Shown here in pieces: positions 45,319 through 46,681 of a stretch of DNA of 64,000 nucleotides. Source of the DNA: Niabella drilacis (lineage in GTDB: Bacteria > Bacteroidota > Bacteroidia > Chitinophagales > Chitinophagaceae); contig NZ_FMZO01000004.1 in the NCBI RefSeq assembly GCF_900101395.1, forward strand, positions 1 to 64,000, written 5' to 3'. A program made the position numbers and the translations under genes. The first letter of the stretch is position 1. Each line of letters opens with the position of its first letter. The notes below the pieces were generated by a model, which saw nothing but the letters and a program-made list of their open reading frames with translations, did not search any database and was not told the origin of the DNA.

Positions 45319-45424
45319 CCGGTAGCCGCGGAAACATTTTAAGGCCCCTTATTTTAAAAAAGATCATGGACGCCAGGCAAATCAAAGAGCCGCCGGGGCC
45401 GGAAAAGGACCGGCAGGAACTCCG

Positions 45425-45713
45425 TCATTCAACCTCTGCTTTATCTTCTGCTTTTTCTGCATTCTCAATGATATCGCCTTCTTTGAATAATATATTCTTT
45501 ACAACAAGGCGCCAGTCCTTTTTCTTGCGCAGTAAGAACTCCAGGTCCATAGCAAAATGGATGAACTCCTCCTGCTGGGCATGCTTCATGATCTTTTTAG
45601 CATCGCGGTCCTTCTCAACATAGATCCGCTGTTCATACCAGCCGATGGCTTCTTCCGGGCTTCTTTTTAATAGTATCGATATATGCCTGAAATGACATCC
45701 GATGGTCTTTCAT
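45425..45713 (-). pseudogene. Frameshifted encapsulated-ferritin-like (EncFtn) gene
   Basis: On the minus strand, ATG at 45713 (or 45698, MSFQAYIDTIKK) opens a frame that stops early. A one-base shift near 45660 restores EEAIGWYEQR, then EKDRDAKKIMKHAQQEEF, IHFAMDLEFLLRKK, ILFKEGDI and a TGA at 45427-45425. The E-x-W-Y-x-Q-R and E-E-x-I-H motifs match encapsulated ferritin-like proteins, whose Glu/Glu/His bind iron between subunits. The shift is a real mutation or a sequencing error. No encapsulin gene is in the window. The flanks (45319-45424 and 45714-46012) show no other gene. Confidence 0.6.
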
Positions 45714-46012: not shown

Positions 46013-46681
46013 ATGAAATTAAAGGTTATCATAACAGGGGCCACCGGTATGGTAGGCGAGGGGGTACTGCAGGAATGTATAAAGAACGCGGCGGTAGAAA
46101 AGATCCTGCTCATCAACCGGAAGGCAACCGGGTATTCCCATCCGAAGATCGAAGAGCTCCTGCACAGCGATTTCAATGATATCAGCCCGATCGCCGACCG
46201 GGTGCAAGGGTATGATGCCTGTTATTTTTGCCTGGGCGTTTCATCAGTAGGTATGAAGGAACCGGATTATTATGCGGTCACCTATACCCTCACCCTCAAT
46301 TTTGCAAAGGTTCTGGCCGGACAAAATCCGCTGATGACTTTTTGCTATGTGTCTGGTGCAGGTACCGACAGCACGGAACAGGGCCGGTTGATGTGGGCGA
46401 GGGTTAAAGGGAAAACCGAAAACGACCTGTTGAAGCTGCCTTTCAAGGCAGTGTATAACTTCCGGCCCGCGGTTATGAAGCCCACAAAAGGGGCACGGAA
46501 TGTAAAAGGCATTTACAGGGTCATCCTCCTGCTGTTTCCATTATTCAGGGTCTTTAACCGCACCTATTTTTTAACCCTGGAAGAAGTAGGCAAGGCCATG
46601 ATCAGCATTGTTATTCATGGCAACCCCACCCCTGCTGTAGAGGTAAAAGATATTGCCCGGCTTTCTGAATTGAACTGTTAA
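46013..46681 (+). CDS. NAD(P)-binding Rossmann protein (HTATIP2-like)
   Basis: A 222-residue atypical SDR-type protein. The nucleotide-binding motif ITGATGMVGEGV is at residues 7-18, with the conserved LLINRKATG further on. Later motifs are YFCLGVSS and YVSGAGTDSTEQGRLMWARVKGKTE. It resembles NAD-binding proteins of the HTATIP2/semialdehyde-dehydrogenase-like type. Its substrate or regulatory role is unknown. It is a single-gene unit, with the next gene in a separate transcript. Confidence 0.8.
   Translation: MKLKVIITGATGMVGEGVLQECIKNAAVEKILLINRKATGYSHPKIEELLHSDFNDISPIADRVQGYDACYFCLGVSSVGMKEPDYYAVTYTLTLNFAKVLAGQNPLMTFCYVSGAGTDSTEQGRLMWARVKGKTENDLLKLPFKAVYNFRPAVMKPTKGARNVKGIYRVILLLFPLFRVFNRTYFLTLEEVGKAMISIVIHGNPTPAVEVKDIARLSELNC

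Follow-up and report, generated by a model that had tools for sequence, protein, structure and literature searches.

A probable deletion scar fuses the 5' end of a DUF4287 gene with the 3' part of an encapsulated-ferritin-like gene in Niabella drilacis

The window analysed here, the first 64,000 nucleotides of contig NZ_FMZO01000004.1 of Niabella drilacis, carries on its minus strand (45425-45713) a sequence resembling the iron-handling encapsulated ferritin (EncFtn), whose reading frame changes just upstream of the EncFtn codons. The original prediction saw in it an almost full gene broken by a single-base shift, and the locus raises the question of what kind of break this is and whether a protein can still be made from it. 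We put at about 0.93 the probability that the feature is a deletion scar in which the 5' end of a DUF4287 gene is fused with the 3' part of an EncFtn gene, so that neither protein can be made. The scar is ordinary gene loss; it shows that a deletion junction can mimic a one-base frameshift, and the useful part is the intact relatives, not the scar itself.

Two parent genes and their junction

The downstream part of the feature (45425..45652, minus strand) corresponds to residue 32 onwards of the intact EncFtn protein and includes its stop codon. In the profile search, it matches PF22277 with an E-value of 2.8e-13 and 49.9 bits (cut-off 27) over positions 28-85 of 85; its nucleotide identity in blastn is 80-85 % to six congeners and ~75 % to three more; and the E-x-W-Y-E-Q-R-like and E-E-x-I-H motifs can be read directly, so that the EncFtn-like character proposed for this strand is borne out. 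The 6.10 Mb genome, the one genome by which the species is represented, has no other EncFtn match. The description of the gene as almost full, conversely, overstates what is left: the window copy lacks the first 27 profile positions and, of the 106 residues in the intact protein, the first 31, and the intact protein of the congener G015 scores 83.3 bits over positions 1-85 of the same profile. Against the curated cut-off of 125 bits for TIGR04535, the NCBIfam family of encapsulin-associated ferritin-like proteins, the remnant reaches 56.2 bits, and two intact congener proteins (from G015 and N. pedocola) reach 87.5 and 88 bits, also below the threshold.

The predicted frame change is present in the translation, but the codons upstream of it have another origin. 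Specifically, the first 17-18 codons, taken at first for the start of EncFtn, correspond to the beginning of a DUF4287 gene (PF14117): window positions 45647-45698 align with the first 52 bases of the DUF4287 gene of G015 (blastn, 52 bp, 82.7 %, E 1.3e-7), tblastn of the upstream codons against the same gene returns 17 aa at 82 % (E 1.2e-4), and 14 of the 17 residues are the same. This 5' remnant (45648..45713, minus strand) reads MSFQAYIDTIKKKPGRS from 45698, with another in-frame ATG at 45713. Its parentage is drawn from the alignment to G015, as the PF14117 match on the window is below the cut-off and not significant (12.2 bits, E 0.19), with the first 16 of 60 profile positions left; the likeness to DUF4287 covers the first 17 codons, whereas the remaining domain is deleted. 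Q-Y-x-E-P at residues 5-9 is common to the EncFtn N-termini of 14 aligned relatives, and nothing similar occurs in the window.

Window positions 45424-45653 match the EncFtn gene of G015 (blastn, 84.3 %), ~2 kb beyond the DUF4287 match. In a base-by-base comparison with G015, the identity to DUF4287 extends from the start codon to the word AAGCC (45647..45651, minus strand) and then collapses, and the identity to EncFtn extends from approximately AAGCC to the end of the compared stretch; the five-base word is found in both G015 parent genes. The break is a deletion junction between two different genes and not a single-base shift. By the G015 spacing, about 2,030 bases (~2.0 kb) are missing, from DUF4287 codon 17 to EncFtn codon 32-33, and a ~2 kb deletion between the two accounts at once for the change of frame and for the unusual N-terminus.

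From the DUF4287 start, a dead-end frame of 26 codons (45633..45713, minus strand) runs into out-of-frame EncFtn sequence, reading MKDHRMSFQAYIDTIKKKPGRS and stopping four codons later at a TGA. The EncFtn frame is open over 94 codons and contains no ATG, GTG or TTG before 45589 (residue 53); the only ORF with a standard start in this frame (54 aa, 45425..45589, minus strand) begins at residue 53, inside helix 2, and is without helix 1, Tyr37 and Glu30. The early end of the one frame, and the late start of the other together with its lost ferroxidase ligand, are the reasons why neither protein can be made.

The ancestral locus and other readings of the break

In G015, four genes follow one another in one direction: DUF4287 (PF14117), a gene for a cyclic-nucleotide-binding protein (PF00027) that we read as Crp/Fnr-like, a gene with DUF4267 and Cupin_2 domains, and EncFtn, with DUF4287 and EncFtn 1.8 kb apart. 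In G006, G010 and G011, an epimerase-type flank gene is followed by the Crp-like gene, the cupin gene and EncFtn, and in G006 the place expected for DUF4287, between the epimerase-type and the Crp-like gene, holds a broken copy; tblastn found no DUF4287 in the fetched stretches of G010 and G011. The corresponding NAD-dependent epimerase-type gene of the window is divergent from the remnant (46013..46681, plus strand), and an LptC-like gene (PF06835; 44665..45318, plus strand) converges on it from the other side. Among the congeners, an intact DUF4287 stands beside EncFtn in G015 alone, and the epimerase flank gene is not adjacent there.

Among the 16 congeners searched, ten have an EncFtn match and three a DUF4287 match (G006, G009 and G015). 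The Crp-like and cupin genes stand beside EncFtn in four of these ten (G006, G010, G011, G015) and are absent in the other six, within the 14 kb fetched; between G015 and the other three, identity is 80-89 % for the Crp-like and 75-86 % for the cupin gene. The intact homologues whose search had been proposed do exist, as EncFtn is in one frame in eight of the ten (G004, G005, G006, G010, G011, G012, G013, G015), that is, in 8 of 16 congeners. It is interrupted in G002 (L045) and G003 (L046), both few-contig assemblies (completeness 91 % and 72 %), where the interruptions may be long-read errors. The DUF4287 of G006 (L038, 7272-7441) is independently broken and is without codons near its start, which points to a neighbour that has been decaying more than once.

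On this comparison, the ancestral locus, read leftwards on the minus strand, would have comprised DUF4287, the Crp/Fnr-like gene, the DUF4267-cupin gene and EncFtn. A deletion of ~2.0 kb between the copies of the five-base direct repeat, presumably through short-repeat illegitimate recombination or slippage, would then have taken out the two middle genes together with the greater part of DUF4287 and EncFtn codons 1 to 31-33. DUF4287 codon 17 would thereby have come to lie next to EncFtn codon 32-33, out of frame with it. The genome contains no profile match to DUF4287 (PF14117), no orthologue of the Crp-like gene (best-scoring match 35 %, highest identity 37 %) and no orthologue of the cupin gene (best-scoring match 36 %); the deleted genes are therefore gone and not moved, and their translocation is ruled out.

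The reading of the original prediction, in which an almost complete EncFtn would carry a one-base shift caused by a sequencing error or a recent mutation in the AAAAA run, accounts for a frame change just upstream of the EncFtn codons and for a well-conserved downstream part. It is nevertheless highly improbable, given that the upstream codons matched none of the 14 aligned EncFtn N-termini and did match DUF4287, that 31 EncFtn codons are missing, and that the AAAAA run (45664-45668) is identical in the DUF4287 gene of G015, where the frame is open. The unchanged run rules out a homopolymer error, and the origin of the upstream codons in a different gene rules out a programmed frameshift. An assembly artefact, by which distant stretches were falsely joined at a short repeat, would agree with a shared word of five bases only at the junction; a false join, however, should have left these pieces at some other place in the assembly, and this genome, with a completeness score of 100 %, contains a single EncFtn match, no DUF4287 match and no Crp-like or cupin orthologue, which makes this explanation very unlikely. 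A five-base overlap is too short for common assemblers to join on.

The little decay of the remnant and the 94 open codons of its EncFtn frame could also be taken as signs of a functional product, either the internal ORF of 54 residues or, by way of ribosomal frameshifting, a fusion of DUF4287 with EncFtn. Little decay is, however, expected equally from a recent loss, helix 1 is mostly gone along with the invariant ligand Glu30, and none of the 10 congeners that match EncFtn (two of them interrupted otherwise) and none of the named loci (the best 80 of 424 confirmed homologues) showed the joined arrangement, so that a surviving product is scarcely credible.

Lost residues and the age of the loss

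The N. pedocola protein (L064), modelled from an input alignment that included 25 named homologues out of the other 79 (mean pLDDT 88.4), has helices at residues 15-43 and 47-74, and the deletion of residues 1-31 takes most of the first. The ferroxidase residues given for the Rhodospirillum rubrum EncFtn in PMC5012862 are Glu32, Glu62, His65 and Tyr39, with which Glu30, Glu60, His63 and Tyr37 of the G015 protein align (offset 2). All four ligands are present in 80/80 named homologues (the best 80 of 424 confirmed), and the Glu30 position is Glu in 81/81 sequences when the G015 query is added to these; with Glu30 deleted, the ferroxidase site of the window copy is incomplete. The activity of the E32A and H65A variants is described in PMC11202242 as reduced by about 55-40 %, and the loss of Glu30 alone would therefore not abolish activity; that EncFtn is dead is argued more strongly by the missing start codon and the removal of most of helix 1 than by the lost ligand.

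Over the 71 remnant codons compared, dN between the window and the six nearer congeners (G005, G006, G010, G011, G012, G015) is 0.035-0.053 (mean 0.044, our average), and dN among these six is 0-0.053 (mean 0.029, our average). To G004 and G013, dN is 0.107 and 0.098 for the window and 0.069-0.107 for the six. Synonymous sites are near saturation (pS 0.65-0.86, window versus the six), at three positions (35, 42 and 48) the window has a residue of its own, and no stop or indel occurs within the 71 codons. So little decay suggests a recent loss, and of the two options first proposed, that of a recently dead gene apparently holds: the values fit a loss late on this species' branch, as a rough and undated estimate from a short sequence. 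As the window mean exceeds the congeners' own mean, the sequence may have decayed somewhat or evolved at a higher rate.

Shell association of the intact relatives

The tail of the window copy, inspected by eye, shows no targeting peptide, in agreement with the prediction. The accompanying statement that no encapsulin is near stands only in part: a family-1 encapsulin (PF04454) was not found anywhere in the genome, but a family-2A shell gene lies on the same contig (C44:71231-72151; NF041162, 533 bits against 380), outside the window and 25.6 kb (~26 kb) from the EncFtn remnant. A cysteine desulfurase cargo gene (NF041166, 883 bits against 800) lies directly downstream of it, and the whole family-2A locus (L169, C44:71231-74066), complete-looking, starts 7.2 kb past the window end. 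Shell and desulfurase look like a complete system of their own, and EncFtn seems unlikely to be a cargo of this encapsulin because the shell has its own adjacent desulfurase cargo. PF19307 (family 2) was searched in this genome only, so that a family-2 shell is possible in other EncFtn-bearing genomes.

Across 195 sampled genomes of the family (N. drilacis included), 20 have EncFtn, with the remnant counted, 7 have PF04454 and one, G023, has both, on different contigs; a single co-occurrence compares with 0.7 expected by chance (20 x 7 / 195), and the family-1 shell is missing in 19/20 EncFtn-bearing genomes. A first set of 79 relatives, which also includes N. drilacis and overlaps with the 195, gave 16, 3 and 1, respectively. 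No encapsulin was detected beside the 80 named loci (best 80 of 424 confirmed) by one tblastn query, run without a positive control on flanks of up to 6 kb a side, some of them shortened by contig ends; these loci were retrieved with two of this clade's peptide patterns, which biases them towards it. A clustering of the genes around EncFtn in the 80 loci drew in apparent shadow reading frames and neighbourhoods common to related rhizobia, and no conserved neighbour is taken from it. Their intact proteins (best 80 of 424 confirmed) have 104-111 residues, and from about residue 95 on, 0/80 of them contain the targeting-peptide pattern [LF]x[VIL]xx[LI].

Among known systems, the best Foldseek match of the intact congener protein is NE0167 of Nitrosomonas europaea (PDB 3k6c), a tail-less short EncFtn (s-FLP) of the same fold (TM 0.78/0.90). 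Both proteins have ~100 residues and can be aligned over 1-92, the congener being without a targeting-peptide-like tail; NE0167 has 95 residues, compared with the 104-111 of the intact copies among the best 80, and the window copy is without residues 1-31. The R. rubrum EncFtn (Rru_A0973, PDB 5da5), an encapsulin cargo, has the fold and the four ferroxidase ligands in common with the G015 protein, but it bears a C-terminal targeting peptide (PMC11202242, Table 2) of a kind not seen in the congener proteins. The intact relatives are short EncFtns in the sense in which PMC11202242 uses the term; this 2024 review states that short EncFtns were initially classed as non-encapsulated, and describes the presence of a binding sequence within their short C-terminal region as unclear.

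A broader reading, to which we give an even chance, is that the lost gene was a shell-free EncFtn. Tail-less EncFtns with complete ferroxidase sites, widely spread in Chitinophagaceae and other bacteria, would work outside any encapsulin; in some Niabella, they would form part of a cluster with the Crp/Fnr-like and DUF4267-cupin genes, and one would have been lost here by deletion despite the lack of PF00210. The ferritin, bacterioferritin and Dps profile (PF00210) has no match in the genome, and the same search was positive in 14/14 control genomes; with EncFtn broken, the species may be without ferritin-type iron storage, as judged by the PF00210 search only. Niabella species with an intact EncFtn and no family-1 encapsulin, together with one that has lost the gene, make the question of the short-EncFtn shell testable. 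Of the paper titles listed in literature searches, none points to EncFtn in Niabella, the one paper that mentions both Niabella and ferritin being a rhamnosidase study by its title, and nothing was found that combines encapsulated ferritin, pseudogene and encapsulin. Lastly, among the best 80 of 424 confirmed homologues, L067-L143 are tail-less EncFtns 65-80 % identical to the Niabella protein in records of Bacteroidota, Mesorhizobium, Bradyrhizobium and Ktedonobacter, a spread of sequences across taxa that is suggestive of horizontal transfer.
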